Part shown: positions 2,583 to 25,003 of the stretch, in pieces | Position numbering within the stretch: position 1 is the first letter of the stretch | Layout: every line of letters starts with the position of its first letter | Source of the DNA: a virus | DNA length: 28,425 bases | Direction: 5' to 3' (one strand) | IMG/VR virus record: IMGVR_UViG_3300006925_000100 | Location: 1 to 28,425 of that record | Position numbers and translations under genes: made by a program | The notes under the pieces: generated by a model | The model's input: only the letters and a program-made list of their open reading frames with translations | Databases searched by the model: none | What the model was told of the DNA's origin: nothing

Positions 2583-2610
2583 TACAATAAATCTTTTTGT
2601 TTTTTGTTAA
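2583..2610 (-). promoter_or_regulatory. Candidate phage-specific late promoter (portal operon)
   Basis: On the minus strand the element reads TTAACAAAAA, 11 bases, TATTGTA. The first half ends at 2610 and the TATTGTA occupies 2583-2589, exactly 21 bases from start to start. The same spacing is found at 4854-4881, 6264-6291 and 16539-16566, with a weaker copy at 14378-14405. Only five bases (TATAT) separate TATTGTA from the ATG at 2577, so a normal start site would give a leaderless or nearly leaderless mRNA. It follows the terminator at 2620-2647. Confidence 0.6.
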
Positions 2611-2619
2611 TTATAAAGC

Positions 2620-2647
2620 AAAAAAAAGGGCATCATTTCTGACACCC
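2620..2647 (-). terminator. Rho-independent terminator with GAAA tetraloop
   Basis: The minus-strand RNA folds as GGGUGUCA, loop GAAA, UGAUGCCC, an 8-bp stem with two G-U pairs, followed at once by eight U. It lies 22 bases past the stop of the tail-tube-like gene and just before the late promoter of the portal operon, so it closes the scaffold-capsid-tube unit. The design matches the hairpin at 14405-14434. Confidence 0.85.
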
Positions 2648-2668
2648 CTTAATCAAGTCAAATTCTAA

Positions 2669-3217
2669 TTAAGCATTAGTTCCCTCTGTGATTGTTGCAG
2701 CTGCACTTGGCATACCTGCAAATGGGTCAGCAGCAGTAGGTGAATCTACAAAGTTCGCAGGTTTCAACTCCTGTGCATTAAAGGTGAGCGTGTAACCAGA
2801 TAAATCAGCCATTGCTGCACCTGTTACGATTGTTCCACCAGTTACCTCTGCACCGTGTTCTAATCCCATAACGAAGACATTTCCGTTATAGTCTTCAACA
2901 GCGATGTGTGGTCTTCCGTAAGCTAATAGTTTTACTTCTTTGTTATCTTCTTTAGATAGTTTCTTAAATGTGATATTTAAGGTCTGGTCAAAGAAAGTCG
3001 TTCCGTTTTCTCTTGATGAGGTTACAGCTTGTTCAAAACTGCTGTTCCCTTTTAGTTCATATTTATAAGCAGTAAAAGTACCTGACATATCTGTAATTTC
3101 GTCATCCGTTTGGGTTACAGTTCCGTAATCTCCGAAATCTGTAAAATATACCGCACGAATCCCACCAACTACATCTTTGCAAGGTTCTTTTCTACCACGT
3201 GTTAAATCACAAGCCAT
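2669..3217 (-). CDS. Probable major tail (tube) protein
   Basis: The 182-residue protein lies between two terminators, downstream of the major capsid gene. The start MACDLTRGRKEPCKDVVGGI and the pattern of beta strands (FTAYKYELKGNSSFEQAVTS, TFFDQTLNITFKKLS, EVKLLAYGRPHIAVEDYNG, GLEHGAEVTGGTIVTG, YTLTFNAQE) read like a phage tail-tube subunit, which has a beta-sandwich and polymerises around the tape measure. The C-terminal 30 residues are Ala/Pro-rich and low complexity. No enzymatic motif is seen. There is no visible promoter in the 20 bases after the terminator at 3232-3263, so it is probably expressed by read-through from the capsid operon. The alternative is a head decoration protein, because it directly follows the capsid gene. 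Confidence 0.55.
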   Translation of the reverse strand: MACDLTRGRKEPCKDVVGGIRAVYFTDFGDYGTVTQTDDEITDMSGTFTAYKYELKGNSSFEQAVTSSRENGTTFFDQTLNITFKKLSKEDNKEVKLLAYGRPHIAVEDYNGNVFVMGLEHGAEVTGGTIVTGAAMADLSGYTLTFNAQELKPANFVDSPTAADPFAGMPSAAATITEGTNA

Positions 3218-3231
3218 AGTTTTTTAGTATT

Positions 3232-3263
3232 AAAAAAGGGTGAGTAGGCTCATTGGCTCACCC
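3232..3263 (-). terminator. Terminator or attenuator after the major capsid gene
   Basis: The minus-strand RNA contains GGGUGAG and CUCACCC separated by 12 bases, giving a 7-bp GC-rich stem followed by six U. It sits in the 72-base gap between the major capsid gene and the tail-tube-like gene. Only about 14 bases separate the U run from the next ATG, and no promoter element of either class is visible there, so it may act as a partial terminator that sets a capsid-to-tube ratio. Confidence 0.75.
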
Positions 3264-3289
3264 ACCCTCTTAGGTTATTTAATTAATTC

Positions 3290-4243
3290 TTAGTTTGCAG
3301 AGTTAGTGATTCCGTATGTTACGATATCTTCTACAATTCCGTACTGTACACCTGCGGTAAATCGCATTACTACACGTACGTTGTCAGAACCATCAAGGTC
3401 AGACATATCTAAAACTTTAACTTCGTTATGGTCAGCTAATAGCCCTGTTCCAAAGAATAAGTTAGATTTTTCAGCAGCAATAGCCGTGTTGTCAGCTAAT
3501 CCGTTAGCTACGAATAATTTAACACCATCAAAAGAAAGTGAACCGTTATTAAACCATTGAGTACCTTGAGCGTTTGTACCTGCTGCTCCTAATCCTGAAG
3601 CACCAAAGCCTCCTAATGCTCTAATATATGCACGAGCGATGTTCTGTGATACATAAACGTTTAAGTCTTCACTTCCGTAAAGTGCAGAAGGGATAGCATC
3701 AACAATGCTTCCTAATTGTGCAATTACGTTTGAAGAATCAACAGTAGTTCCTGCAACTTCTTGTGCGGCAGGTAAAGCAGCATCAAGAGCAATTTGTGTA
3801 GTAAGTCCGTTGAATTGTCCGTTGTTAGAAGTATCTCCTGCCCAGATAGACTGTTCTGTTTTTTGAGCAACTTTAGCCGCTACGTGAGCAATTAAGAAGT
3901 CAGAAAACGAAGGTGGTAAATCGTGGTGTGCAGAATATCCCATCTGAATAGCTTCCCAATCTGAAATAAAGTCTTTCTTACAAAGTTGTAAGTTCACTTG
4001 TTGATATTCAGGTTGTAAAACTCTTTCAGTAAGTGTAATAGTAGAAGTAGGGTCAAAATCACAAGTTGCATCTTTTACGATTGCATCAGTAGATAATTTC
4101 TTGATTACTTCTTTAAACTTTACGTTTGGTTTAACAGTAATACCACCGTTGTCGATAGTAGAACCGCTTAATAAAGCAGCAGAGATGTACTGTCCTGCAC
4201 TTTCTCCTGCATAAGTAGTTGTAATACTAGTTGTTGTTGCCAT
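3290..4243 (-). CDS. Major capsid protein (HK97-like fold expected)
   Basis: This 317-residue protein follows an acidic scaffold gene and a capsid protease, the normal order for a head module. Visible features are a Thr/Ser-rich N terminus (MATTTSITTTYAGESAGQYI), a central helix-rich segment with DLPPSFSDFLIAHVAAKVAQ (a long spine-helix candidate), a Gly/Ala-rich loop (GGFGASGLGAAGTNAQG) and a C-terminal beta region (DNVRVVMRFTAGVQYGIVED). These are typical of major capsid proteins of Bacteroidota phages that I recall. It starts 7 bases after the scaffold stop behind an A/T-only leader without Shine-Dalgarno sequence. A hairpin at 3232-3263 follows. Proteolytic trimming of the N terminus is possible given the nearby protease, but no cleavage site can be read. 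Confidence 0.85.
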   Translation of the reverse strand: MATTTSITTTYAGESAGQYISAALLSGSTIDNGGITVKPNVKFKEVIKKLSTDAIVKDATCDFDPTSTITLTERVLQPEYQQVNLQLCKKDFISDWEAIQMGYSAHHDLPPSFSDFLIAHVAAKVAQKTEQSIWAGDTSNNGQFNGLTTQIALDAALPAAQEVAGTTVDSSNVIAQLGSIVDAIPSALYGSEDLNVYVSQNIARAYIRALGGFGASGLGAAGTNAQGTQWFNNGSLSFDGVKLFVANGLADNTAIAAEKSNLFFGTGLLADHNEVKVLDMSDLDGSDNVRVVMRFTAGVQYGIVEDIVTYGITNSAN

Positions 4244-4250
4244 TTTTTAT

Positions 4251-4847
4251 TTATTTATTAAAATTTCCAATTTTTCCGAGCACTCTATCAAATGTAGTAG
4301 CTACTCTTTTTTGTGCAAATAGGTTTAATTCTTTCTTTGCACTTGCTTCAGGGTTATGGGTGATTTTCTCAACAGGTTCTTCTGCTGATAGTTCTTCCTT
4401 AACTTCTTCCACAATATCTTCAACCGCTTCTTCTGCTAATTCTTCTGCGCTCATTTCTTCTTTTGGTTCGAGCATAGATTTAATTTCTTCAACCATTTCT
4501 CTGATTTCAGAAAGTTCAGCTTTAGTAGCGTATTCCATTTCTTCTTTTTCTTCCTCTGCTGCTTCGACTTCTTCTTCGGCAGGGGCTTCTTCTTCCTCTT
4601 GGGCTTCACCAATAGAAGCAATAATACCTTCCTCTTCTACGATTAAGGCTTGACCGTCTTCTAACTTGTATTCACCCACAGGTAAGGCTACCTTTTCATC
4701 ATCTGTAATGATAAAGACTTCTTTACCTGCTGCCATTTCTTCAGCTTCGATTACAGTACCATTTTCCAAAGTAGCTTGTGCTAACTTCACTTCTGTTTCA
4801 ATAGAAAGAAGTTCTTTTGCTTTTGATAAAATTTCTTGTGCTTTCAT
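4251..4847 (-). CDS. Capsid scaffold-like acidic protein
   Basis: The 198-residue product is dominated by Glu: residues about 85-105 are nearly all Glu and Ala, and a second acidic helix (EELAEEAVEDIVEEVKEELS) follows near 140. A beta-rich N-terminal part (ATLENGTVIEAEEMAAGKEV, then KVALPVGEYKLEDGQALIV) precedes this. The C terminus is basic (KKELNLFAQKRVATTFDRVL), the arrangement expected of a scaffold whose basic end binds capsid protein. It lies between the head protease and the major capsid gene and has a late-promoter element ending six bases before its ATG. The role is inferred from composition and gene order; I did not recognise a specific family. Confidence 0.72.
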   Translation of the reverse strand: MKAQEILSKAKELLSIETEVKLAQATLENGTVIEAEEMAAGKEVFIITDDEKVALPVGEYKLEDGQALIVEEEGIIASIGEAQEEEEAPAEEEVEAAEEEKEEMEYATKAELSEIREMVEEIKSMLEPKEEMSAEELAEEAVEDIVEEVKEELSAEEPVEKITHNPEASAKKELNLFAQKRVATTFDRVLGKIGNFNK

Positions 4848-4853
4848 ATATTA

Positions 4854-4881
4854 TACAATAAGTTATTAATTATTTTGTTGT
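4854..4881 (-). promoter_or_regulatory. Candidate phage-specific late promoter (scaffold-capsid operon)
   Basis: TATTGTA lies at 4854-4860 on the minus strand. Starting exactly 21 bases upstream is ACAACAAAAT, which keeps the AACAAAA core of the other copies but has lost the leading TT. The ATG of the scaffold gene begins seven bases downstream, after TAATAT. Confidence 0.55.
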
Positions 4882-4885
4882 GTTT

Positions 4886-5254
4886 TTAGTTTGCTGCTTC
4901 ACATTCTGCACAGTCATCGTATTGAACAGATGCAGTATTTATATGCACCCCTTCTGAAGATAGTGTAGAAGTTATTGTGTAACACTCGTTGTGATTGTTT
5001 TCTAAAGTAAGATAATATACTTTACCAACCGTTAATTCTGTATCGTGCATATGTACGTGCCTAGTATGTTGGTTTGAACAAGCTGTTGCTAAATATCCAT
5101 ACCAAACACCTGTAAGGCTTTCTCCTGTAATATTACCTATACCTTGTGCTTGGAAACTTCCATCACAACATCTTCTGCTGTATGTTCCGTCATCACATAA
5201 ACAACCTCTTTTGTCGTTTTTAGGACTTGGCGCGTAATGTTCGTAATCTCTCAT
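4886..5254 (-). CDS. Cysteine-rich small protein, unknown function
   Basis: From the ATG at 5254 the product is 122 residues; a TTG start at 5269 would add five. I prefer 5254 because it forms an ATGA overlap with the protease stop. The N-terminal part holds a dense cysteine cluster (RGCLCDDGTYSRRCCDGSF, about residues 16-34), and the C terminus has a second pair (DDCAECEAAN). The middle looks beta-rich and includes a His-rich patch (NQHTRHVHMHD). The two Cys pairs and the His patch could bind a metal or form a structural knot. I recall the CLCDDGTYSRxCCDGSF pattern in other Flavobacteriia phage genomes beside the head genes but know of no assigned function. Context suggests a head decoration or head-completion protein. 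Confidence 0.62.
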   Translation of the reverse strand: MRDYEHYAPSPKNDKRGCLCDDGTYSRRCCDGSFQAQGIGNITGESLTGVWYGYLATACSNQHTRHVHMHDTELTVGKVYYLTLENNHNECYTITSTLSSEGVHINTASVQYDDCAECEAAN

Positions 5255-6258
5255 TTTATAGGAACGCAATTAGGTACTCTTTTACCGTTTTTCATCTTAA
5301 AGCCTATCATCTCATATCCTGTTTGACAAGGCTTCTTTAAATCAGCTTCTAACAAGTCTAATTCTTTTAACTTACTACCTGCCCATCTAAGTCCTGCTTT
5401 ACCGCCCCACAATAAGTAAGAAATAGTACCACAGGCTTCGCTGTTTCCTTCATCGTAATATTCTTGCGCCCTACTTAGGTAGCTGAACATCCTTTTTATT
5501 GTTTCTACACTTACAGGCTTTCCTTTTGCAAGTTGAGTAGCTCTTATCTTGCCCACTTGCGTTGCACACTTGTTGTTTACCTTCTCGTTTAATTCTATTC
5601 CTCTTTTAGCGTTGTTAGATACTGCATCTGGATAGTCTGAATATGAATCTAACTCAACTCCAGATAGGACGGTCTTTAATTCTTCTAATAAAAAATCTTC
5701 TTCTTGTGATTCCCATTCACTTAAATTATTTGGTTCGTTAGGTCTTTCTAACTTGTCAGCAAAGTACCCTTCTATTGAAAACCCTTTTACCTTGCCTGTT
5801 TTAACGTAGTTATTCCAAACATCATCATTTAGAACTTTCATTGATAGCATCCAAGTACCTAATGGCATATCCATACCGTAATGACTTGACTTGTCTTTGT
5901 CTTTATTTTCTACAATCCAAGACTCAACCGCTACTAACCCTTCTAAAGGCATTTGATGTTCTAGTGTACTCTTGTTGTGGTTGCCTCTAATAAAGAATAA
6001 CTCACTTGCTTTACGGACTGTATCACGTGAGAAGTAAATGTAGTATTCGTTTTCTTCACTTCTTCTATAAATAGGTTTATTAGGAATTAAAGCAGCACCC
6101 ATTAGAATACGCTTCTCTTTGTTCACTTCTGCAAATTTAAACTCTTGGTTTTTTAATGCTACGAAATCTTCTTCAATTGCAGGGTTTTCTACTATTGATA
6201 CTGCTTCGATTCCTGAAACATCGTCATTCTCATCTATAAATAGTTCTATAATGTCCAT
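5251..6258 (-). CDS. Capsid maturation protease (XkdF-like) with fused C-terminal domain
   Basis: This 335-residue protein begins with the pattern of XkdF-type phage serine proteases: ELFIDENDDVSGIEAVSIVE near the start, GAALIPNKPIYRR (about 54-66), a His-containing loop (GNHNKSTLEHQMPLEGLVA, candidate catalytic His near 101), GTWMLSMKVLNDDVW (134-148) and GKVKGFSIEGYF (155-166, candidate catalytic Ser161). After a charged linker, residues about 214-300 form a second domain with NNKCATQVGKIRATQLAKGK and SYLSRAQEYYDEGN, a segment I recall as a separate helical module in Bacteroidota phage proteins. The protease would process the scaffold and capsid encoded immediately downstream. A late promoter ends five bases before its ATG. 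Catalytic residue assignment is tentative. Confidence 0.75.
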   Translation of the reverse strand: MDIIELFIDENDDVSGIEAVSIVENPAIEEDFVALKNQEFKFAEVNKEKRILMGAALIPNKPIYRRSEENEYYIYFSRDTVRKASELFFIRGNHNKSTLEHQMPLEGLVAVESWIVENKDKDKSSHYGMDMPLGTWMLSMKVLNDDVWNNYVKTGKVKGFSIEGYFADKLERPNEPNNLSEWESQEEDFLLEELKTVLSGVELDSYSDYPDAVSNNAKRGIELNEKVNNKCATQVGKIRATQLAKGKPVSVETIKRMFSYLSRAQEYYDEGNSEACGTISYLLWGGKAGLRWAGSKLKELDLLEADLKKPCQTGYEMIGFKMKNGKRVPNCVPIK

Positions 6259-6263
6259 ATAAG

Positions 6264-6291
6264 TACAATACTTTTTTTGTGTTTTTGTTAA
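6264..6291 (-). promoter_or_regulatory. Candidate phage-specific late promoter (protease operon)
   Basis: On the minus strand, TTAACAAAAA ends at 6291 and TATTGTA lies at 6264-6270, with starts 21 bases apart. The TAA of the upstream half is the stop codon of the tape-measure gene. TATTGTA is followed by CTTAT and then the ATG at 6258, identical to the junction at 14378. Confidence 0.62.
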
Positions 6292-7853
6292 CCTAGTGAA
6301 GCAGAATTAACAATGTTTCTATCTAAGGCTTGGGCGTTTGTTACTTCGTTAGATACAACAAAGGCTTTTACTGGCTGCGCATCTCTCCCGTTTATCGCTT
6401 CTGCTAATTGATTTGTGCCTGATGCTCCTACTACGTTAAATGCAGGTGCTTGTGCTGCGGATGTACCACCACCGCCACCGCTTCCAACTCTAGGACTTCT
6501 TGCTGAAAATCCTGATTTGTTTGGTTTTGGTGTAGAAACTATACTTTTAATTTGTGATGCACTAAAAGCTGCTGCCAATCCTGCTTGTACTATTGGGTAT
6601 GCAGGGAAAAAAGCTGTTATTGGTGATTTTTGTGCAGTTGAGTAAGCATTTTGCACACCTTCAATACCACTAATAGTAGCAGAAGTTACTGCTGCTGCTT
6701 TACCTAATGCACTTCCTTCACCCGCTAACTCAACAATAGAATTTAATGTGTTTACGCTGTCTTGAATTTTTGCTTCTGCAACGGCTCTACTTAACGCTAT
6801 TTGTTCTTCTGCTGCTTCTTTAGCTTTCTCCTTTTCCTCATCAATTAAATCAAGTCTTTCACGCTCTAAAGAATTTATATTCATCAACTGCTCTGAACGG
6901 AATCCTTCAATCTGTGCTAAAATACCCTCACGTTCTGCTTTGGCTTCTAGTAATGCAATTTGATTCTCATCGTTTGCGTTCTTGTCAAACTGTGCTTGTG
7001 CTGCTGCTATAACCGCATCTGCATTAGCCAACATTAATCTTTCTTGCTCATTTAATACTGCTGCAAGTTTGTTGTTAGCTTCTATGCGTTCTTCAATAGT
7101 CTTGCTTTCATCATCTCTGATTTGACGTAACTTTTCAGCTTCTCTATCTTTCTGCTCTAAGATGATTCTATTTTGTGCAATACCTACTTCTGCTTTTCTG
7201 TTTAGGTCTACTATTGATGCTGCACTATCTATTGTGCTTTTAGTATAATCTACTATTGCCTTTGTTGCATTAGTTACTGTTTCAACAGATTTATCAAAAG
7301 TATTATCTACTCCTGTAAGTACATCTAATGATTCTTTTCCTGCATTTTTCACATCTTCTAATGCACCTGCAAAATCATTGCTAAATACCTTTTTAACCGC
7401 ACTTGCTAAATACCCAAGCGTGTCTAGGAAACTATTGAAGCGTTCTGTTAAGTTTTCTTTGATACCGTTGCCGAAATCTATCATTGCTTGTTTAGGGTCG
7501 CTAAAAATACCCTTAAAATAGTCTATAACAGTACCTACGTTAGAATCTAAAAATTTAAAAAAGTCGTTAAAAGCTAAAGACAACCCTTCAAACGCTATAT
7601 TAAAAGCATTAGCTACTTTTTGGTTTTGGTTAAACACCTCACCTAGTTTTGCAAATGCTGCAATAGCTAAACCAATACCTGCTGCTTTTAAAGCATTACC
7701 TATCCCCTTAACACCTTTTGCTACACCGCTTGAGGTATCTTTTACTTCCTCTAGGTTTTTGTCAATCTTTTGTACGCTCTTAGCAACTCCATCAAGGTCT
7801 TTTTCAGCTTTATCAACCCTTGCTTCTATTTCTATTGTTTTCTTTATAGACAT
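6288..7853 (-). CDS. Tail tape-measure protein
   Basis: The 521-residue protein is mostly helical with long coiled coils. It has an N-terminal heptad region (about 5-45), a hydrophobic segment (ALKAAGIGLAIAAFAKLGEV, about 54-73), a central Glu/Lys/Arg-rich coiled coil (about 215-350), and a second hydrophobic Ala-rich region with FFPAYPIVQAGLAAAFSASQ (about 415-440). A Gly run (GSGGGGGTSAAQ) precedes the C terminus. This pattern is typical of tape-measure proteins of Bacteroidota siphoviruses. At roughly 1.5 angstrom per residue it would suit a tail of about 80 nm or less. It follows the tail chaperone and fibre-base genes. No lytic domain is visible. An internal virion protein is the alternative if the phage is not a siphovirus. 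Confidence 0.75.
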   Translation of the reverse strand: MSIKKTIEIEARVDKAEKDLDGVAKSVQKIDKNLEEVKDTSSGVAKGVKGIGNALKAAGIGLAIAAFAKLGEVFNQNQKVANAFNIAFEGLSLAFNDFFKFLDSNVGTVIDYFKGIFSDPKQAMIDFGNGIKENLTERFNSFLDTLGYLASAVKKVFSNDFAGALEDVKNAGKESLDVLTGVDNTFDKSVETVTNATKAIVDYTKSTIDSAASIVDLNRKAEVGIAQNRIILEQKDREAEKLRQIRDDESKTIEERIEANNKLAAVLNEQERLMLANADAVIAAAQAQFDKNANDENQIALLEAKAEREGILAQIEGFRSEQLMNINSLERERLDLIDEEKEKAKEAAEEQIALSRAVAEAKIQDSVNTLNSIVELAGEGSALGKAAAVTSATISGIEGVQNAYSTAQKSPITAFFPAYPIVQAGLAAAFSASQIKSIVSTPKPNKSGFSARSPRVGSGGGGGTSAAQAPAFNVVGASGTNQLAEAINGRDAQPVKAFVVSNEVTNAQALDRNIVNSASLG

Positions 7854-7990
7854 AATTCCAATTTAAACTGTTTATACGCTTCTTTAATAGTTTCTGGGTA
7901 TTTGTACTTACCTAACGCTATATGGGTGTATTCTCCTATCTTATTTTCTCGCTTTGCTAATTCTAGCATTTGTAATATATTTTCTACCAT
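7844..7990 (-). CDS. Small protein (48 aa) upstream of tape measure
   Basis: An ATG at 7990, four bases after the upstream tail gene, opens a 48-codon frame that reads MVENILQMLELAKRENKIGE and continues with YTHIALGKYKYPETIKEAYK to a stop at 7844. The frame overlaps the tape-measure start by 10 bases and exactly fills a gap in an otherwise gapless operon, which supports it being real. The product is charged and probably helical, with no recognisable domain. A role in tail assembly is possible only by position. Confidence 0.55.
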   Translation of the reverse strand: MVENILQMLELAKRENKIGEYTHIALGKYKYPETIKEAYKQFKLELCL

Positions 7991-7993
7991 TTC

Positions 7994-10144
7994 TTAGAAT
8001 ATTATTATTGTTGCATCTGCTGTTTTAGTAGTTGTATCTGCTGTAACAAGTCCAGTATCTATTGTTACTATTAAATCTTCTTGCACTTCAGCAGGGTCGT
8101 ATTCTAAGTCTTGTGTTACGTTTATTAACTCTAAATCCGAAATACCTGTTTCAAAATTAGTAGTCAATTTATTTATCTTGTAAGCATTGTCGAATATTAC
8201 AACCTTGTCATTCAACTTTATGTTGCTAATTATACTTACAGGTAAAAAGGCTTTAAAGGTGAATAATCTTCTTGATATATCAAACACTTCTTCTATGTAG
8301 TTCTTGTAATAAGTATAGAACAAAGAGTTTTCTGAATATACACCTGTGTATTCATTCTTCTGCCCACCAAAATGTAAACTTTGTGAATCGTTATCTGTTG
8401 GGTCAACGTTGTTAGCAGGTATATAGTAGTCATCAATCTGGTGTGTTGTACCACCTACTGTTTCAGAAAACTGTATTGGTGTTCCATCGGTAACTTTGTG
8501 CGCATAAAATAATAACGGTTTACCTAAGTAGGGTTCTTGTTTGTCATCTGCAGACCATCCCCATTGTGCTGTTGTGCCTAAAAACCTTTCAAACTTATGA
8601 TGCTCAAACGGTACTGATATGTCATAAGTATCAGATGTAAAGTCTGTATTGTTACTATATAATACAGAACCCCATTCTTGATTGAAATATGTACTATGGA
8701 ATTTACTAAAGAAAGAATCTAATCCTTGATACTTAAAAGATATTTCTTTAAATGGATAGGCTATTTGTACTTTTGATTGTGAATTATCTAAGTACTTTGT
8801 AATGTCATAGGTGTTGTCTGAACCTGCATAATAATCATCTAAAGGCAATACTTGTATCTGTTCGCCATCAAAAAAAGCGGTAAGATTAAATAACTTAAAT
8901 AAAGATGTTACAAAATCAATTAACTTCATTTTTGGCATTTCGTCTTTCACAGTAGTTCTTAACGATGTACTAGAAGTGTAATCAATTTTTGCATTTGCGT
9001 TGCTATCACCATCAAAGACATTGACGTGTAATGTAATTATTGAATTTGAATTTGACTGTACCGATATATAAAACCTTCTGTCCCTGTCTTGTCCACCTGT
9101 CGTGTAAGACTGTAACATTTCTAAATCCACTGCTGTAGATTGGAAATCACCAGTACCTTCATACTCACTATCGTGTAACACTTTAAAGTATTCAGTAACC
9201 TTAATAGAAAATTTAACTCCTGCAGGTGCATTTACACTTATGCTCATATACCTTTTACGGTTAGCGTCTATGTTATCATAGTACCCACCTGTTCCAAAGC
9301 CTTCTCTTAAGTTTGTTGATGTTCCTACTTTATCATACCAATCACCCGCAAGAGCATTTAACGCTAAATTGTTTGTAGATATATCATTTTCGTTAGGGTC
9401 AACTCCACCTTTCTGTTTATGTAACCACAAGTAGATATTGTAATAAGGTAGGTTAGTTGAGTTAAAGAAATCCCTTGAAAAAGATATACCAAACTGTTTT
9501 TCTATTGCTAGTATAATAGCGTGTATTCTTACAGCTGGTTTTAATTGGTCAAATACTACACCGTGATTGCTACCACTAGCATACAAGTTATACGTTCCTG
9601 CTGTGCTGTCAGTATTATCGTAAACCAGTCTATTCTTACTTGAAATTAAAGGGTATATAAAAGCATCTTCTAATACATTAGCATCAATCTCAAAGTCTTG
9701 TCCATCTTGCATTGTGCTTAATACAGTAGGTGCATCATATAATAATGAGGTGTCTAATTCAGATAAGTCTTGTAAACTAGCGTCTTGTAATATTTCTTTA
9801 AACTGTATTGTATTTCCTAGAAACGTGATGCGGTAATTAGAAGGCTCACCGTTTTTCATTTGTACGCTTTCGTTTTTTATTCTACCTACTTTTAATGGTT
9901 GATAGTTAAGGTGCAGTACTGCCTCCCTTGATACTTGAGTATTTGTGTTTACAACCGCAGGGTTATAATAGTGCTTAAATATCTTATTATTGTTTTTTGA
10001 GGCAGGTACGTTAAATGTACGTGAGTAATCAGTGAACACCTTTTGTACGTCTAATATATCCTGAAGCGTTTGAGTTAATACAATACTCTCGTTTTGATGT
10101 AACTCTACTTCTTGACCTTCTATAAAAAGTTGTAGGTGTAACAT
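7994..10144 (-). CDS. Large tail/baseplate protein
   Basis: The 716-residue protein begins with MLHLQLFIEGQEVELHQNES and a DYSRTFNVPASKNNNKIF segment (about residues 39-56) that I recall as a hallmark of large tail-tip proteins in Flavobacteriia phages. The N-terminal 110 residues resemble a beta-barrel distal-tail domain. The remainder is rich in Tyr, Asn, Ser and Asp with many short strands, as in baseplate or receptor-binding structures. The C terminus ends in a Thr-rich stretch (TIDTGLVTADTTTKTADATI). It sits immediately before the tape-measure gene and overlaps the upstream 326-residue gene start/stop by one base, suggesting coupling. No enzymatic motif was seen. The exact position in the tail is uncertain. 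Confidence 0.6.
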   Translation of the reverse strand: MLHLQLFIEGQEVELHQNESIVLTQTLQDILDVQKVFTDYSRTFNVPASKNNNKIFKHYYNPAVVNTNTQVSREAVLHLNYQPLKVGRIKNESVQMKNGEPSNYRITFLGNTIQFKEILQDASLQDLSELDTSLLYDAPTVLSTMQDGQDFEIDANVLEDAFIYPLISSKNRLVYDNTDSTAGTYNLYASGSNHGVVFDQLKPAVRIHAIILAIEKQFGISFSRDFFNSTNLPYYNIYLWLHKQKGGVDPNENDISTNNLALNALAGDWYDKVGTSTNLREGFGTGGYYDNIDANRKRYMSISVNAPAGVKFSIKVTEYFKVLHDSEYEGTGDFQSTAVDLEMLQSYTTGGQDRDRRFYISVQSNSNSIITLHVNVFDGDSNANAKIDYTSSTSLRTTVKDEMPKMKLIDFVTSLFKLFNLTAFFDGEQIQVLPLDDYYAGSDNTYDITKYLDNSQSKVQIAYPFKEISFKYQGLDSFFSKFHSTYFNQEWGSVLYSNNTDFTSDTYDISVPFEHHKFERFLGTTAQWGWSADDKQEPYLGKPLLFYAHKVTDGTPIQFSETVGGTTHQIDDYYIPANNVDPTDNDSQSLHFGGQKNEYTGVYSENSLFYTYYKNYIEEVFDISRRLFTFKAFLPVSIISNIKLNDKVVIFDNAYKINKLTTNFETGISDLELINVTQDLEYDPAEVQEDLIVTIDTGLVTADTTTKTADATIIIF

Positions 10145-11124: not shown

Positions 11125-11127
11125 TTC

Positions 11128-12681
11128 TTAATTGTTAAATTGAAAACATTCTCCCTGTGTACAGTTCACTTCTTTAACTTCTGATATATAACCGAATCTG
11201 TCTATTTGAATTACTGTATAGCTTGTGCCAATATCGCCACCAGTACCTCCAAACCTTCTTGAGCCAAGCCACCAAAAATCACCTCCGTTAAACGGGTTAC
11301 CTTTGTCGCACACTATACCTCCTACTTGTAAATTTGTAAATATTGGGTATGTTGCTTGTTCTACTCTACCACAATGGTCGCAAGGGTTTGTTACACCTAT
11401 TGTTGATATATAGTATTCCCTTAATACAACACCATTTTGAACTTGCGTAACGCAATCACTTTCTATTGGTGGTTGCTGCCTTTGAATCGTACAACTTAGT
11501 GTATTTCCTACACCAAGATAGCCAGTTGGTATTGTAATGTCTACACCAATACTTCTATCAGTAGGACTATACACAACAGGAAATGTAGAACCTGAACCTA
11601 CTCCTAAAGTGTTTGCTGTAAACTCTGCTTCTATACCGTCATATAATACTTTAGATTCACCTACGACTATATCGCCTGTTGTGGCTATTCTGAACCCTTG
11701 AAATACTAACCTATCATCACCACAACCTAAGTTGTTGAGCGGTAAAGTTTCAGGTCTTTGTGTAAATGTTTTATCACATTCTATTTCACTTCCCCCATTT
11801 GTATAATGGTCTGGTACATTAAAAACAAAGGTTAATGTTACATCTCTGTCGTTTACAGTAGTGTTTGCACTATATCCATCTGTAACCTCTACACCGTTTT
11901 CATCTTCAATGCGTACTATTCCTCCTAACGTGTTAGAAAATGACGGTCTGTTTATTGTACCATCTCCTGCTAATGAACCGCCTGTTAGTGCTATTGCATC
12001 GTTGTTTGCATCATCTGTCGTACAGGTTAGTGTTGTCGTTGGACATTCAGCCGAAACCGTAAATGTATTACTAGTTGCTCTACAAGCATCAGCACTACTC
12101 TTTGCCTTTATCGTTATACTTGTTTGAACGCAAGTTTTGTCAGTAGCAAATGTTAACGTTTGATTTGGCATTGTACCAGTTGGTTCATCAAAAGTAATCC
12201 CTAAACCTCCTGATTGAATAATTTCGTATCTTTCTATTCCTGCACCAGAACCTGCTGTAAAATATGTCCCTAAGGATATACTTGAGCCTGTTTCATCTAG
12301 GTTAGCAATGTTAGGTATTGGACCTGAAAATGTTGGACAGTTGTTATTTTGTGTAGGGTCCTCTTGTGCTGATTGAGTAGGTTGGTCAATTGATTGTGGA
12401 CATATAATAGTTGCGTCATCTGCATTTGGATAGCTAGCGGGTATTAATATAGTGTAATTGACGGTTCTTGGTATGCTGCTTCCGCTTGTGTTTGATGCAA
12501 ATGAATCTGTATCCCTACTCAATATTGTGCCTTTTGCAATAGACGGGTCTGTTATTGTTCCATCACTGCTTACAGCGAAACCTAGTAGATTTGCAGTTGT
12601 ACAAGTGAAAGTACCTAGCGATACCGTAGGCTCTACTGCTTCTATGTAAAATGGACTTCTTGCGTTTATTTTTGTACTCAT
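11128..12681 (-). CDS. Repeat-containing tail adhesin-like protein
   Basis: This 517-residue protein contains at least three related modules of about 90 residues. Each starts with a Leu-Thr/Gly-Cys pair, has a GTI or GDI turn, and ends with a strand of type I-x-I/V-P-x-x-Y followed by C and a Q-x-P motif (VNYTILIPASYPNADD, TFVFNVPDHYTNGGS, GVDITIPTGYLGVGN). A different Ig-like segment (about 115-210) is inserted between the first and second. The C terminus is distinct: Gly- and Trp-rich with Cys pairs (NPCDHCGRVE, GGDFWWLGSRRFGGTGGDIG). The paired cysteines and Ig-like repeats fit an extracellular virion protein that contacts the host surface. It overlaps the upstream gene by four bases. I infer an adhesin or tail-fibre role. 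Confidence 0.5.
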   Translation of the reverse strand: MSTKINARSPFYIEAVEPTVSLGTFTCTTANLLGFAVSSDGTITDPSIAKGTILSRDTDSFASNTSGSSIPRTVNYTILIPASYPNADDATIICPQSIDQPTQSAQEDPTQNNNCPTFSGPIPNIANLDETGSSISLGTYFTAGSGAGIERYEIIQSGGLGITFDEPTGTMPNQTLTFATDKTCVQTSITIKAKSSADACRATSNTFTVSAECPTTTLTCTTDDANNDAIALTGGSLAGDGTINRPSFSNTLGGIVRIEDENGVEVTDGYSANTTVNDRDVTLTFVFNVPDHYTNGGSEIECDKTFTQRPETLPLNNLGCGDDRLVFQGFRIATTGDIVVGESKVLYDGIEAEFTANTLGVGSGSTFPVVYSPTDRSIGVDITIPTGYLGVGNTLSCTIQRQQPPIESDCVTQVQNGVVLREYYISTIGVTNPCDHCGRVEQATYPIFTNLQVGGIVCDKGNPFNGGDFWWLGSRRFGGTGGDIGTSYTVIQIDRFGYISEVKEVNCTQGECFQFNN

Positions 12682-13184
12682 CTCTTAAGTGTAAATTCTA
12701 ATAATTCTTCTACGTCTAATCCGTATGCTTCTATAATTTCGTCTGGTAATTTCTTGAAACCTTGTTCAAATGGTTTAGTAAAGAACAGACTTGGTTTTAT
12801 ACCTTTCTCAAATATGCTTCTTTGTATTAAGAACGACATACTCTTGTAGGACATAAACTTTCCTTTCTTATCTCTAAATTGAAATCTGCGTTTGCTAATC
12901 CACTCTTCTAATGTTTTGCGTGGTGGTCTTTTAGAGGTGTAGCTAAATGGTGTATTATACTTCTTCTTTGTACCGCTCACCCCTTTATCTTGATACACGC
13001 CATAATCTTCCATAAAGAACGTTAGACTAATTGAATTAGAACTAACCTTTACATCACCATCAATACTGTTGTAAAGTTTCTTGTTTACGTTCTTTCTGCT
13101 CTTAGTAAGTCTGCTGCGTGATTGTTGTATCACAAACTTCTTGAAGGAATTTAAGGCTTGATATGTGTACCCCTTTGTTAGCAT
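12678..13184 (-). CDS. Tail completion / neck protein (HK97 gp10-like)
   Basis: The 168-residue basic protein has a Lys/Arg/Ser-rich N terminus (QQSRSRLTKSRKNVNKKLYN), then a strand with FFMEDYGVYQDKGVSGTKKK (about 56-75) typical of gp10-like head-tail joining or tail completion proteins, where the x-YGxYxDxGVxG core recurs. A central PPRKTLEEWISKRRF helix and a C-terminal GIKPSLFFTKPFEQGFKKL segment complete the usual pattern. It sits after the tail-terminator-like gene (overlap of seven bases) and before the repeat protein (overlap of four). The assignment is from pattern and order; a minor tail protein is the alternative. Confidence 0.6.
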   Translation of the reverse strand: MLTKGYTYQALNSFKKFVIQQSRSRLTKSRKNVNKKLYNSIDGDVKVSSNSISLTFFMEDYGVYQDKGVSGTKKKYNTPFSYTSKRPPRKTLEEWISKRRFQFRDKKGKFMSYKSMSFLIQRSIFEKGIKPSLFFTKPFEQGFKKLPDEIIEAYGLDVEELLEFTLKR

Positions 13185-13633
13185 ATGGTCATATCGTTTT
13201 CTACTACTACATCAAAGGTGGCTACCCACCCTGCTAACTTGTTTTCAAACCTATCTACGAATGGTTCACAACCTACTGCACCTATTACTTGGAATTTGTC
13301 TGTATAAACATCACCTCTTTGTAAAATTGCTATTAGTCTGTTAAGGACTGCAAGTTGTGTATTCATTACATCTTGCTCATTGTCGTTTCCTACAAAGTTA
13401 TCTTCTACTTCTTCTTTGCTTTCATCTACTATGTCCATTGCAAGTACACTAATGTTAAACGTTAGCGTATTGTTTGCAACGCTGCAGTTGTTTACTATCA
13501 AGTGTGATAATGGAAATATAGTTTGCTTGTTTAAATCAACATCGTCTAGGCTTCCATAGGTAACTGTATTCACAAATGGTTCTGCTGCTAATGTATCTTT
13601 GATTTTATCCGTTACGTTGTAGAATCCTGTCAT
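13178..13633 (-). CDS. Tail terminator-like protein
   Basis: The 151-residue protein reads MTGFYNVTDKIKDTLAAEPF, then a VDLNKQTIFPLSHLIVNN segment (about 33-50), then FNISVLAMDIVDES, a helix with MNTQLAVLNRLIAIL and a final strand GWVATFDVVVEN. The helix-strand layout, the length and the HLIVNN-type strand are those of tail terminator or minor tail proteins that cap the tube. It begins with an ATGA overlap on the second-frame tail chaperone, so translation is likely coupled. Position between the chaperone and the gp10-like gene supports a role in tail completion. Confidence 0.55.
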   Translation of the reverse strand: MTGFYNVTDKIKDTLAAEPFVNTVTYGSLDDVDLNKQTIFPLSHLIVNNCSVANNTLTFNISVLAMDIVDESKEEVEDNFVGNDNEQDVMNTQLAVLNRLIAILQRGDVYTDKFQVIGAVGCEPFVDRFENKLAGWVATFDVVVENDMTIC

Positions 13634-13884
13634 CTTCTTTTAATCTGTTGTCTTTCTAGTTCTATTTTTTCTTTTTCAAATGCTAAGTAAACCAAACATT
13701 CGTGAACATTCAATTTAGTGATATTCTCAAACTTGGTAACATCTCCCTTAGCAATTCCATAGATGCTTTGATACCAACCCCACTTTTTTCCAAATGTTGA
13801 AGCTGCTGTGTAGTCATCTCCTTGCCCACTTCCTGTTCCAAAAAGTTCAGGGTAGTTTTCAGCAACTCGCTGTTTAAAGTCCAA
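13630..13884 (-). CDS. Tail assembly chaperone, second frame (made by -1 frameshift)
   Basis: This 84-residue segment has no ATG; its first codon is a TTG that lies inside the T9 run of the upstream chaperone gene. It is therefore best read as the C-terminal part of a frameshift fusion (163 residues from the first frame plus these 84, total 247). The sequence YPELFG near the start, then ASTFGKKWGWYQSIYGIAKG and VTKFENITKLNVHECLVYLA, then a Lys/Glu-rich end, closely matches the usual C-terminal extension of tail chaperones in Bacteroidota phages. By analogy with lambda gpG and gpGT the fused form would bind both the tape measure and the tube protein. It overlaps the first-frame ORF by 175 bases, and both frames look protein-like. 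Confidence 0.78.
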   Translation of the reverse strand: MDFKQRVAENYPELFGTGSGQGDDYTAASTFGKKWGWYQSIYGIAKGDVTKFENITKLNVHECLVYLAFEKEKIELERQQIKRR

Positions 13885-14372
13885 AAAAAAACCATTGCCC
13901 CCATTACAACATCCAGAGGCATCTTCTTCATTCGTTCTGCGTTGTCTAAGCCATCGTAGTCTTCTATCTGATACCTATCAGCTTTGCTTAGTTTAATCGG
14001 TCTAAAAAGAACCGCCATTGCTTTGTGCATACGTTCCCAATCAGTAAAGTTTTCATCAAGGTCTACATACTCACCTAAAGTCATATCATCAAGCACAGGA
14101 ATGAATCCATACTCAATGCCACCCATTGTGAATCTAGGAATCAAATCTTGCTTAGGTTCAAATAGTTTGTTTATGTCGTTTAGTATCTCTTGGACGTAAG
14201 TGTATTTAATTTTTGCAATATCTTTTAAATCAAGGTTGCAAAATATTTCAACAGTCTTATGCATTAAGAATCCTGTATCTGAATTATCTTCTGTGTTAAT
14301 CTTAGAAAATTTTTGATACTGCTCTAATGTAACTTCACTAAGGCTGCTTGGTACAAGTATATCTACTTTCAT
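13710..14372 (-). CDS. Tail assembly chaperone, first frame
   Basis: The 220-residue protein (MKVDILVPSSLSEVTLEQYQ) is the first-frame product of a two-frame tail chaperone gene and opens the tail operon. It is acidic and helical and contains the FTMGGIEYGFIPVLDDMTLG segment (about 111-130), which I recall from chaperones of Bacteroidota phages. At residues 161-163 (Val-Phe-Phe) the mRNA carries the slippery T run, and downstream of it two frames are open: this one continues for 57 residues, and the -1 frame encodes the 84-residue extension. A late promoter ends five bases before the ATG, with a terminator just upstream. In vivo the short form would normally be in excess over the fusion. Confidence 0.78.
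   Translation of the reverse strand: MKVDILVPSSLSEVTLEQYQKFSKINTEDNSDTGFLMHKTVEIFCNLDLKDIAKIKYTYVQEILNDINKLFEPKQDLIPRFTMGGIEYGFIPVLDDMTLGEYVDLDENFTDWERMHKAMAVLFRPIKLSKADRYQIEDYDGLDNAERMKKMPLDVVMGAMVFFWTLNSELLKTTLNFLEQEVGKEMTTQQLQHLEKSGVGIKASMELLREMLPSLRISLN
13884..13890 (-). promoter_or_regulatory. Slippery heptamer for -1 ribosomal frameshifting
   Basis: The minus-strand coding sequence reads G GTT TTT TTT TGG in the first frame. It contains a T9 run (13883-13891) and the canonical X-XXY-YYZ heptamer T-TTT-TTT at these positions. A slip of one base back places the ribosome on TTG GAC TTT, the start of the second-frame ORF. The homopolymer could also allow transcriptional slippage. No downstream pseudoknot was worked out. 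Confidence 0.75.
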
Positions 14373-14377
14373 ATAAG

Positions 14378-14405
14378 TACAATAAAATAAGTTGAATTAT
14401 GTATA
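14378..14405 (-). promoter_or_regulatory. Candidate phage-specific late promoter (tail operon), weak upstream half
   Basis: TATTGTA lies at 14378-14384 followed by CTTAT and the ATG at 14372, the same junction as at 6264. The upstream half at the fixed 21-base position reads TATACATAAT, which shares only six of ten bases with TTAACAAAAA. It starts in the U tract of the terminator at 14405-14434. Confidence 0.45.
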
Positions 14406-14434
14406 AAAAGAAAAGGGCAGTATTTCTACCACCC
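14405..14434 (-). terminator. Rho-independent terminator with GAAA tetraloop
   Basis: The minus-strand RNA folds as GGGUGGUA, loop GAAA, UACUGCCC, followed by UUUUCUUUUU. It closes the three-gene mini-operon (15014-14481) and insulates it from the tail operon. The 8-bp stem with two G-U pairs and the same loop repeats the design at 2620-2647. The gap 14373-14480 holds only this terminator and the tail promoter. Confidence 0.85.
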
Positions 14435-14480
14435 TTAACCAATGTTTAACTAAATTATCTAAATGAAAAATATTTCCTTA

Positions 14481-14720
14481 CTAAGATATAAATTTTTTAT
14501 AAATATACAAGTACATCTCATTTATTTTTTCTTCTAGTTCTTTACTGTTCTGTTTATACGAATCTGTTCCCATCTTCTTAAAGCCCTGTAAGTCCATCAC
14601 AAGCTGTACAGGATAAGGCTTACTGGACCAACCCCTTCCCATAGGGTGCTGCTCTACAAAGAAACCTTTATTCCAACAAGCCTTCCTGACTTGCCAATCT
14701 TTTAAAGTTTTACTATCCAT
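14481..14720 (-). CDS. Small protein (79 aa), unknown function
   Basis: I place the start at the ATG at 14720 (MDSKTLKDWQVRKACWNKGF); an earlier frame-open start at 14786 would add a stretch that merely mirrors the upstream gene. From 14720 the overlap with the preceding 55-residue gene is 19 bases. The protein is Lys-rich, with two Trp and a GRGWSSKPYPVQLVMDLQGF core, and ends in an amphipathic helix (SKELEEKINEMYLYIYKKF). I do not recognise the family. It is the last gene of the host-promoter mini-operon and is followed by a strong terminator. Confidence 0.55.
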   Translation of the reverse strand: MDSKTLKDWQVRKACWNKGFFVEQHPMGRGWSSKPYPVQLVMDLQGFKKMGTDSYKQNSKELEEKINEMYLYIYKKFIS

Positions 14721-14869
14721 AAAAAGAAGTAAATAAATGCGTACATACCTGCGTACACCGTTCCCATTGCAACAGGTACTTGCCACAATGCTTTTCTAAG
14801 TAGTTGCTTGTTTTCTTCCGATGTTAATTGTTTAACGATTCGGTACTCTTCTGTTTCTTGTATTCTCAT
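14702..14869 (-). CDS. Small membrane protein (55 aa)
   Basis: An ATG at 14869 opens 55 codons beginning MRIQETEEYRIVKQLTSEEN. The N-terminal half is charged. The C-terminal half (VPVAMGTVYAGMYAFIYFFL, then WIVKL) is one hydrophobic segment long enough to span a membrane, so the protein is likely a single-pass inner-membrane protein with its charged part in the cytoplasm. It starts 10 bases after the zinc-ribbon gene and overlaps the next gene by 19 bases. Its role is unknown. Early membrane peptides of phages often affect superinfection or host envelope physiology, but nothing here proves it. Confidence 0.6.
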   Translation of the reverse strand: MRIQETEEYRIVKQLTSEENKQLLRKALWQVPVAMGTVYAGMYAFIYFFLWIVKL

Positions 14870-14879
14870 AGTTGTTGTT

Positions 14880-15014
14880 TTACATTAAATATGCTTCAAA
14901 GCAATCGCCATTGCAGAAGTCTTTTTCTGTTGGTCTGCCACAAGTTGGGCAGGGTGCATCACATTCGCCAATGCGCTGTAAGTGTCTTTCGTATTCCTCT
15001 ACTAAATAATCCAT
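14880..15014 (-). CDS. Small zinc-ribbon protein (44 aa)
   Basis: The product from the ATG at 15014 is 44 residues (MDYLVEEYERHLQRIGECDA and onward). I chose this start because it directly follows the leader AAAACAAACAAT, shared with other host-promoter operons, and because the alternative at 15062 would lie inside the promoter. The C-terminal half has CPTCGRP and FCNGDCFEAYL, with Cys22, Cys25, Cys34 and Cys38 spaced as in short treble-clef or ribbon zinc fingers (CPxCG...FCxxxC). It could bind RNA polymerase, DNA or another protein. It is the first gene of an early-type operon wedged between terminase and tail genes. Confidence 0.65.
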   Translation of the reverse strand: MDYLVEEYERHLQRIGECDAPCPTCGRPTEKDFCNGDCFEAYLM

Positions 15015-15032
15015 ATTGTTTGTTTTACTCTT

Positions 15033-15062
15033 CAAAGATATAAACTTTTTATTAACTACCAA
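15033..15062 (-). promoter_or_regulatory. Host-type promoter, exact Bacteroidota consensus
   Basis: The minus strand reads TTG (15060-15062), 19 bases, TATCTTTG (15033-15040). This matches the Bacteroidota primary-sigma consensus TTG-N19-TAnnTTTG at every defined position. The upstream TTG lies one base past the terminase stop codon. The ATG of the zinc-ribbon gene is 18 bases downstream of the -7 box. Confidence 0.75.
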
Positions 15063-15063
15063 A

Positions 15064-16233
15064 TTAATAGATAAAATAATTTCCTTTGTGTGGGTTCTCT
15101 AATGTATCAGTCAAGATGTAACGTGCAGCATCTATACAGTCAGGGTGTTCTCCTGTTGGTTTCTGTAAGGTGTTCCCCTCTTTGTCCTTTGCCCATATAT
15201 ATCCTTGTAATTCCCTTTTTAGGTTCTTGCTTCTTGATGTTATATAAAGTTCGTTTTGGTTCATTAGGTTGATTCCATATACTACTGAATCCCTACCCTT
15301 GCTCACAGGTGTTACTGTATGCCCATACCCTTGTAGTTCTGCAATACTCTTTGGTTCAGCTGAATCTGCTACAATAGCTTCTGTGATTCCGTTAGAAGAT
15401 AAAAACCTGCTTATATCTCTATTAAGCATCCCCTTCTTATATAACACCTCATCGTATATGTAGGCATCATTCCACTTATATAATGCTATTAGTGTGGTAG
15501 GGTCTACCGAATATCCAAAGTCCATTCCATAGCCAAGCAGTCTAGCTTCGACAGGAACTGTATCAATCTCTTTCCAATCAGGAATACAAACCCCTTCAAG
15601 GCTTCCTATTTCACCTAGTCCATAAACCCTCCACCAGTTCGCCCAATAGGTTGAGGTCTTAGCTTTGTCTTTAGCTTTTTCTATTTCTCTTACGATTGTG
15701 TCTGGTAGTGAATCGTTATCCTTGTAGGTTAGTGTAACAAAGTCTGTATCTTCTTTTCCTACTAATTCCTTATCAACCCAGAATAGTGCAGCAGGGTTAT
15801 AATCTAACCAAATGTTTCCACTTGTTCTTACTACTAATTGTTGGTAAGCATCAAAGGGTACATTGTTACACTCATTAATGTATAAGTCTGTTCTCCTTGC
15901 ACCTCTTAGTTTGTCAGGTTGGTCGGTTGAAAAGAACTCTATATAACTGCCATTTGTAAACGTGTATTTTAAGGTGGACTTGTTTAGTTGGTTATCCTTA
16001 TACCTATTCATACCCTTTAAGATGCCTAAGAAGTCCTTGTATGCGCCTCTACGCAGGTGTGGTATGCTTTCACTTACTACACTAATTTCTTTGCCATCAT
16101 TTCTTATAGCGTAGTCAATCAAGATAAGCAATATGCAAATAGTCTTTCCTGCTGATGTACCACCACGTACAATCTTGACCCTGCTGTTGAGGTTTCTTAA
16201 TTTGGTAAGTGCTTCTGTTTTCTTTATCTGCAT
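15064..16233 (-). CDS. terL: Terminase large subunit
   Basis: The 389-residue protein has both domains of a large terminase, the motor that packages DNA through the portal. The ATPase domain shows a Walker A at residues 24-31 (GGTSAGKT) and a Walker B at 116-121 (DLYINE, with catalytic Glu121). The C-terminal RNase H-like nuclease shows three acidic sites: GMDFGYSVDP with Asp238, AIVADSAEP with Asp290, and HPDCIDAARY with Asp365 or Asp368. The length is on the short side but complete. It starts 29 bases after the small-subunit candidate in one operon behind a late promoter. Its stop is followed at once by the host-type promoter of the next operon, and I see no hairpin between them. Confidence 0.93.
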   Translation of the reverse strand: MQIKKTEALTKLRNLNSRVKIVRGGTSAGKTICILLILIDYAIRNDGKEISVVSESIPHLRRGAYKDFLGILKGMNRYKDNQLNKSTLKYTFTNGSYIEFFSTDQPDKLRGARRTDLYINECNNVPFDAYQQLVVRTSGNIWLDYNPAALFWVDKELVGKEDTDFVTLTYKDNDSLPDTIVREIEKAKDKAKTSTYWANWWRVYGLGEIGSLEGVCIPDWKEIDTVPVEARLLGYGMDFGYSVDPTTLIALYKWNDAYIYDEVLYKKGMLNRDISRFLSSNGITEAIVADSAEPKSIAELQGYGHTVTPVSKGRDSVVYGINLMNQNELYITSRSKNLKRELQGYIWAKDKEGNTLQKPTGEHPDCIDAARYILTDTLENPHKGNYFIY

Positions 16234-16262
16234 ATATTTTACAGATAGGGTTTAGGTTATCC

Positions 16263-16505
16263 CTAGTCTATAAACAAAGGTACATCTTCGTTGATAGAGA
16301 TGTCTTTAGTTTCTTTTGGTTTCCCAAGATAGTAGTTAAGATAAAGAGTAACCCATTTAATATCTCCTGACTTTACACCTTCTGCCATTGCAGCTAATGC
16401 ATCATCTTCTAATGGGGATAAACGTTCTACAAGCTGTATTTCTTCAGCCTTAGGTTTTCTACCTGCTCCTGCTCTTGCACCACCGTTAAACTTTCTTTTA
16501 TCCAA
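16263..16505 (-). CDS. Probable terminase small subunit
   Basis: The 80-residue protein begins with a basic Gly/Arg-rich segment (KFNGGARAGAGRKPKAEE), then a helical region with ERLSPLEDDALAAMAEGVKS, then DIKWVTLYLNYYLGKPKETK and an acidic end. This pattern is common in short DNA-binding proteins directly upstream of terL in Bacteroidota phages, so a DNA-recognition role in packaging is likely. The first codon is TTG (16505); an in-frame stop lies 15 bases further upstream and no ATG occurs between, so the non-ATG start is forced unless the reading frame begins later. The late-promoter element is 33 bases upstream, the only copy with a normal-length leader. Confidence 0.6.
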   Translation of the reverse strand: MDKRKFNGGARAGAGRKPKAEEIQLVERLSPLEDDALAAMAEGVKSGDIKWVTLYLNYYLGKPKETKDISINEDVPLFID

Positions 16506-16538
16506 TTTGAAATATATTGATTATTCAATGTCTATATG

Positions 16539-16566
16539 TACAATAAGATTTAAACTTTTTTGTTAA
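16539..16566 (-). promoter_or_regulatory. Candidate phage-specific late promoter (terminase operon)
   Basis: On the minus strand TTAACAAAAA ends at 16566 and TATTGTA lies at 16539-16545, again 21 bases from start to start. The TAA of the upstream half is the stop codon of the 26-residue ORF. Unlike the other copies, 33 bases separate it from the start codon, so this copy argues that the motif is a promoter and not a translation signal. Confidence 0.6.
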
Positions 16567-16643
16567 TCCTTAAAGTATTCGTACACCGCTGCTGCTAGTA
16601 ATCCAAAGGATGTGATAGCAAATAACATTATTGAGTATTCCAT
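16563..16643 (-). CDS. Tiny membrane peptide (26 aa)
   Basis: The ATG at 16643 shares one base with the stop codon of the DnaA-like gene (TAATG), and the frame runs 26 codons to a TAA at 16563. The peptide is MEYSIMLFAITSFGLLAAAV followed by YEYFKD: one hydrophobic helix of about 18 residues with short charged ends, so probably a single-span membrane peptide. The coupled start and full use of the gap favour a real gene. The function is unknown. A chance ORF in a short gap is the alternative. Confidence 0.45.
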   Translation of the reverse strand: MEYSIMLFAITSFGLLAAAVYEYFKD

Positions 16644-17134: not shown

Positions 17135-17315
17135 TGATGTTTGTTATTGTATCGTGTCTTGTTTCGTTTATTGCTTTTAGTATTCCTGCACAGGCTTCGT
17201 AGTCTTCTACATCTTCATAGAGTTGTATTATATCTTCTAGTTCCTGTATGCTTACTCCTTCTTTTATGTCTAGTAAGGTAAGCAAATAAAATTCTTCTAT
17301 TATGTCTTTATTCAC
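17103..17315 (-). CDS. Small acidic protein (70 aa), unknown function
   Basis: The frame starts at a GTG at 17315, overlapping the Mom-like stop by eight bases, and ends inside the DnaA-like gene (32-base overlap). The product (EEFYLLTLLDIKEGVSIQEL, then EDIIQLYEDVEDYEACAGIL) is strongly acidic and helical with a more basic tail. No domain is recognised. Tight overlaps on both sides mark it as part of the operon. Small acidic phage proteins can be DNA mimics or inhibitors, but that is speculation here. Confidence 0.55.
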   Translation of the reverse strand: MNKDIIEEFYLLTLLDIKEGVSIQELEDIIQLYEDVEDYEACAGILKAINETRHDTITNINEKREDTERD

Positions 17316-24937: not shown

Positions 24938-24972
24938 ATAGTGTAATTTACATATTATTAGCCTCCACCCAC

Positions 24973-25003
24973 CAAAGGTCGGACATTTTTTTTAAAAAGT
25001 CAA
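24973..25003 (-). promoter_or_regulatory. Weak host-type promoter candidate before the ninG unit
   Basis: The minus strand reads TTG (25001-25003), 20 bases, GACCTTTG (24973-24980), which matches TAnnTTTG except for the first base. Spacing differs by one base from the other four. The 84-base gap 24938-25021 has no convincing GC hairpin, only an A/T palindrome. Confidence 0.3.

Follow-up and report, generated by a model that had tools for sequence, protein, structure and literature searches.

A predicted late promoter class matched to a phage-encoded ECF-type sigma factor in uncultured marine phages

A bipartite motif that recurs at a fixed spacing before the virion operons of an uncultured phage raises the question of what the motif does and which protein reads it. 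The locus lies in a 28,425-nucleotide stretch of DNA (IMG/VR record IMGVR_UViG_3300006925_000100), the whole of which is referred to here as the window. The initial annotation had described TTAACAAAAA, 11 bases, and TATTGTA on the minus strand and had proposed a phage-specific late promoter class. We propose, with a probability of roughly 0.85, that the motif comprises the -35 and -10 elements of a phage late promoter read by the phage's own ECF-type sigma factor.

Late promoter sites in the window and in related phages

All five sites of the initial annotation are present where it placed them, on the minus strand, the one that encodes the window's genes:

16539..16566, minus strand: predicted late promoter of the terS-terL operon; TTAACA-N15-TATTGTA; predicted +1 at 16533, giving a leader of ~28 nt to a TTG start at 16505
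14378..14405, minus strand: predicted late promoter of gp220, tail-region operon (13710-14372); TATACA-N15-TATTGTA, 5 nt, ATG
6264..6291, minus strand: predicted late promoter of the head maturation protease (5251-6258); TTAACA-N15-TATTGTA, 5 nt, ATG
4854..4881, minus strand: predicted late promoter of the scaffold-like (4251-4847) and capsid-like (3290-4243) genes; ACAACA-N15-TATTGTA, 6 nt, ATG
2583..2610, minus strand: predicted late promoter of gp113 (2236-2577) and portal (479-2236); TTAACA-N15-TATTGTA, 5 nt, ATG

Genes were annotated with PHROGs and Pfam. Portal, protease, and terminase were matched directly; the labels "scaffold" and "capsid" come from position and from the initial annotation, their families having no named function. 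Two side observations concern neighboring genes. An 84-aa ORF in another frame overlaps the 3' end of gp220 (13630-14372, minus strand), with a run of nine T residues at ~13891, and is a candidate for a programmed frameshift of the tail-assembly-chaperone kind. A Mom-like DNA modification gene and an adjacent ParB-like gene (17308-18809, minus strand), found in 2 of 20 full relatives, are an accessory module.

The exact pattern TTAACAAAAA-N11-TATTGTA occurs three times on the minus strand of the window (2583-2610, 6264-6291, and 16539-16566) and never on the plus strand, with an expectation of ~0 per strand in a first-order Markov simulation; with up to three mismatches, there are 4 matches versus 1.04 expected from dinucleotide shuffles. 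TTAACA-N15-TATTGTA, which is shorter than the 17-base pattern first described, is the better strict core. Rewritten in this way, the two sites that had seemed weaker become ACAACA-N15-TATTGTA (4854) and TATACA-N15-TATTGTA (14378), and one geometry is common to all five. The generalized form, which was picked after the sites had been seen, has five occurrences on the minus strand and none on the plus strand, with 0.017 per strand expected in the window. A weight matrix built from relatives and run over both window strands detected no strong site in coding DNA and none before early genes or on the other strand, in agreement with the claim that the motif belongs to late operons only; the single weak match in coding DNA falls within the LamG gene. 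The motif had also been set apart from the Bacteroidota primary-sigma consensus, TTTG/TAnnTTTG (PMC6847099). Indeed, it has neither TTTG at -33 nor TAnnTTTG at -7, and no late site in the window carries TAnnTTTG in register.

Relatives were collected by scanning IMG/VR with the terminase, which yielded 80 loci at 80% identity or more. Upstream of terS, ~255 to 310 bases before terL, TTAACA (or ATAACA)-N15-TATTGTW/TATTATA is present in about nine-tenths of the loci that cover the region. Across the 80 loci (813 kb), the exact core TTAACA-N15-TATTGT is found 60 times on the gene strand and 0 times on the other, and it is absent from the gene strand at spacers of 11 to 14 and 16 to 18, which bears out the constant spacing noted originally. 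A second spacing peak, TTAACA-N19-TATTGT (11 hits), proved to be conserved coding sequence of gp151 and not promoters. Unique sites for the relaxed motif number 182 on the gene strand and 2 on the opposite strand.

In full contigs (~30 kb), the motif precedes the same genes as in the window, namely, terS, gp220, the protease, scaffold, and gp113, as well as a gene ~0.56 kb after portal that would fall outside the window. The 14378 site, first described as weaker, is real and has the same spacing; it is a TATACA variant kept at gp220 in all full relatives except the L clade and G057. Three promoter types can be distinguished. G-type promoters combine TATTGTW with TTAACA, ATAACA, TATACA, or ACAACA; in the A type, G029 and G035 carry TATTATA at each of their five promoters and have unchanged -35 elements; and L-type promoters combine TAAACA, AAAACA, or AATACA with TATTWTT, TATTTTA, or TATTAAT. 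Single promoters with A replacing G occur in a few G-type phages, and the assignment of L-clade scaffold promoters is unclear. No promoter was recognized in G057, the most divergent relative (sigma 38 to 43% identical), and no nucleotide similarity to isolated phages was found for the window.

The promoter identity of the motif is strongly supported, and strand, fixed spacing, late-operon position, and recurrence before the same genes in relatives all favor the phage-specific late class proposed at the outset. A repeated motif of fixed geometry, ahead of late but not early operons, is likewise in keeping with phage sigma-dependent late promoters. The description of this class as new is consistent with the open-access literature searched, and it may have been described elsewhere.

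A phage sigma factor and its co-variation with the promoters

The candidate reader of the motif, a gene that the initial annotation did not connect with it, is encoded in the window as follows:

21422-22024, minus strand: ECF-type sigma factor gene in the replication operon; ISWVSI is the predicted region-4 recognition helix, and Arg70 tracks the -10 guanine

The conserved start of the protein is probably Met12 (21991). All 23 sigma homologues examined match TIGR02937 (sigma70-ECF), and 20 of the 23 match phrog_1740, "RNA polymerase sigma factor." By the sigma-70 ECF models, which span regions 2 and 4, the protein belongs with the ECF sigmas (group IV), the window protein itself scoring 35.7 bits (E 6e-9) against TIGR02937, under the curated cut-off of 42.9. 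The structural model contains only sigma-2 and sigma-4 domains, as in ECF sigmas, and is of moderate confidence (pLDDT 71), with domain placement uncertain. Its top Foldseek hits are all ECF sigmas (SigL, sigma-E, AlgU, and SigH structures), and residues 115 to 183 fit region 4 of E. coli sigma-E on -35 DNA with an rmsd of 2.0 A over 69 residues (2h27). Searching the PDB by sequence with the sigma profile returned antibody chains at weak E-values, which were dismissed as chance. The assignment of ORF 21422-22024 as an ECF-type sigma factor is thus well supported by sequence and model, and its promoter specificity is predicted.

The gene is found in 26 of 42 terminase-derived contigs, which were found via the terminase and not via sigma, including all that reach 27 kb or more; most contigs that lack it are short or end before that region. 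It is also present in 20/20 full contigs compared, ten of which had been picked via sigma. A tblastn search of 50,697 isolate phage records gave 0 matches. Directly downstream of sigma lies a 138-aa Cys-containing protein (21040-21456, minus strand; CGCDER and CSTCF motifs) that is kept in 20/20 full relatives and is possibly a partner or regulator of sigma. No recognizable anti-sigma was found.

The promoters and the sigma factor vary together. Residue 70 of sigma is Arg in 28/28 G-type phages, whereas it is Gln (2), Lys (11), or Glu (1) in the 14 others. Of 46 columns that do not vary among the 28 G-type sigmas, this is the only one to differ in all 14 others. G029 and G035 have TATTATA at five promoters, with both the -35 elements and ISWVSI unchanged, and in the L clade, -35 and -10 are both altered and the region-4 helix reads ISLISI. 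For L307, the TATTATA promoters led us to expect a non-Arg residue before the sigma was read; residue 70 is Glu. One exception is G061/L246, which keeps Arg70 and mixes TATTGTA with TATTATA/TATTAAT; G061 was scored as G-type in the residue-70 count. In the model, Arg70 is the first residue of helix 70-88, in the region corresponding to 2.3/2.4, and may contact the -10 guanine. Promoter type follows sigma clade even where the terminase is unrelated: it is not explained by terminase lineage, because the same L-type promoter occurs in L-clade contigs with 33%-identical and 65%-identical terminases. Since sigmas without Arg70 occupy only three places on the sigma tree, the co-variation could partly reflect shared ancestry.

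These observations bear on what else might read the motif. Specificity could come from another phage protein acting on one half-site, with host sigma on the other. The protein with a DnaA_C domain (16643-17134) would be one such factor: its gene lies just before terS and is present in 19/20 full contigs. We consider this version of a late promoter very unlikely, given that the DnaA-like protein shows just 27 to 34% identity among phages that share the motif (window versus G006, G017, and G026) and that both half-sites co-vary with the corresponding sigma domains; the motif is presumably not a DnaA box either. More unlikely still is that a host alternative sigma reads the motif and the phage sigma has another role. 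In its favor, ECF sigmas are numerous in the hosts of this group, but each phage's promoters all shift along with its own sigma. We retain the phage sigma as the probable reader, a protein that matches these promoters both by its presence and by co-variation, as phage sigma-dependent late promoters would require.

Start codons, early genes, and host

At four of the window's five sites, an ATG follows TATTGTA by 5 to 6 nt, a feature that the initial annotation did not mention. Among IMG/VR-wide matches to the exact motif, the ATG is exactly 5 nt away at 81/86 sites in relatives and at 0/24 sites in unrelated contigs that share the 17 bases. At the terS promoters, whose leaders are 25 to 31 nt long and where no ATG stands at this distance, the ATG register is occupied by a conserved T (0.96) and then a purine (0.93); T followed by a purine is the usual -1/+1 step. 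Because of the fixed 5-nt distance and this step at the same register, we predict that +1 falls on the A of the ATG and that most late mRNAs are probably leaderless. The -10 element lies ~10 bp before the start codon, and the +1 predicted from sequence falls on the ATG, as in leaderless genes. Leaderlessness is not universal, since ~15 nt separate the motif from the ATG at the L-clade gp113 and gp220 sites. The least credible explanation is that the motif serves translation or packaging as a signal close to start codons and is no promoter. This would account for the fixed ATG distance at most sites, but the same motif lies 25 to 31 nt before the terS start codon, most genes lack it, and two elements held apart by a rigid spacer are unlike a ribosome signal.

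Leaderless mRNAs are rare in Bacteroidota: leaderless genes were reported in 1/37 Bacteroidetes/Chlorobi genomes (PMC3160421), and 87% of predicted transcripts in F. johnsoniae have leaders of >10 nt (PMC6847099).

As a separate observation, the terS leaders (16505-16533 in the window, plus relatives) fall into three A/T-rich classes, TTGAA..TTCAA, AATCA..TGATT, and TTAATT..AATTA, each of which could fold into a short hairpin ahead of the start codon. This has weak statistical support: a 5-bp stem precedes the start in 14/42 leaders versus a mean of 7 and a maximum of 14 in shuffles, and the hairpin was set aside as unconvincing.

The early genes are preceded by a site of another kind:

24970..25003 (approximate), minus strand: site resembling a host-type promoter, ahead of the early operon; TTG-N20-GACCTTTG, a single base different from TAnnTTTG

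TTG-N19/20-TAnnTTTG is also found before the early operon (gp77/NinG) in G006, G015, G035, and G060. A host-type promoter for the early genes is only suggested, because host-consensus-like sites show no overall excess on the gene strand (33 versus 45). Upstream of NinG in G046, G047, and G048 (L309-L314), an inverted repeat, TTAACA-N4/5-TGTTAA, lies beside the host-type TAnnTTTG and looks like a repressor operator.

Primary-sigma promoters of Bacteroidota (PMC6847099) are the probable host background, and several relatives carry sites like them ahead of early genes. Together with the nearest terminase relatives, which are Flavobacterium phages (51%), and one contig from a Bacteroidetes MAG, these early sites indicate that the host is probably in the Bacteroidota. 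A firm host is precluded because the sigma was found in just two bacterial contigs, one labeled Thioglobus and the other the Bacteroidetes MAG. The former, L307 (JAOMMB010000017.1), is a phage contig of the same family in an assembly labeled Candidatus Thioglobus, a gammaproteobacterium, and represents either contamination or an unexpected host.

Proposed mechanism and known phage sigma systems

The scheme proposed here starts from what the sequences show: the motif with its strand and spacing, the genes that it precedes, its conservation, the homology of sigma, and the co-variation of sigma with the promoters. Binding by sigma, the start sites, the lack of leaders, and the timing are its predicted parts. 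Early in infection, host RNA polymerase with the primary sigma would read the replication operon from a host-type promoter, and this operon would supply the ECF-type sigma factor. The phage sigma would then steer the host's core polymerase to the late promoters, five or six in number, that precede the virion operons; region 4 would read TTAACA and region 2 TATTGTA, with a rigid spacer of 15 bp between the two elements. The -10 guanine may be read, directly or indirectly, by Arg70, which begins the region 2.3/2.4 helix. Transcription would start six nt beyond TATTGTA, at the step from T (-1) to purine (+1), and at all late promoters except that of terS, +1 would be the A of the ATG or lie within a base or two of it, producing leaderless virion mRNAs.

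Late promoters driven by a phage sigma are a kind already known from phiEco32 and 7-11. According to the available text of one report (PMC8948821), a phage sigma and bipartite late promoters have been proven by experiment in phage 7-11. Its sigma, SaPh711_gp47, is like the present one phage encoded and equipped with region 4, and its late genes are also preceded by bipartite promoters, GTAAtg-16-aCTA. The host sigma serves its early genes, and transcription starts 6 to 9 bp from the element, both of which resemble what is predicted for the present system. However, 7-11 has other promoter sequences and is a Salmonella phage of another family, and that text makes no mention of a leaderless pattern. 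The same text describes phiEco32 gp36, likewise a phage sigma for middle and late genes, with promoters tAATGTAtA; there, a single -10-like element is used by a sigma without region 4 homology, whereas two elements and region 4 are found here. The present sigma shares with ECF sigmas such as sigma-E, SigL, and SigH the two-domain layout, region 4 fold, TIGR02937 match, and near-constant -35/-10 spacing, but it differs in being a phage gene in a replication operon, in its A/T-rich elements, and in having no recognized anti-sigma. By this comparison, the present system appears to work like that of 7-11, and what is new is the sequences, the ECF-type sigma, the host group, the start-codon overlap, and the co-evolution series.

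On balance, we lean toward a broader conclusion: that a phage clade, probably with Bacteroidota hosts, expresses most of its virion genes on leaderless mRNAs through its own ECF-type sigma, and that its natural variants make up a readable series of sigma-promoter co-evolution, with the -10 base determined by one arginine and the -35 by the region-4 helix. The analysis provides a genome-based late-transcription program, with factor and sites named, for a widespread group of uncultured marine phages, and its predictions can be checked at the level of single bases and single residues. The matched sigma and promoter variants amount to a natural experiment in DNA recognition by ECF sigmas and may find use in orthogonal expression systems. 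Should the late mRNAs prove leaderless, the phage would bypass the usual leader-dependent initiation of its host for the proteins in highest demand.
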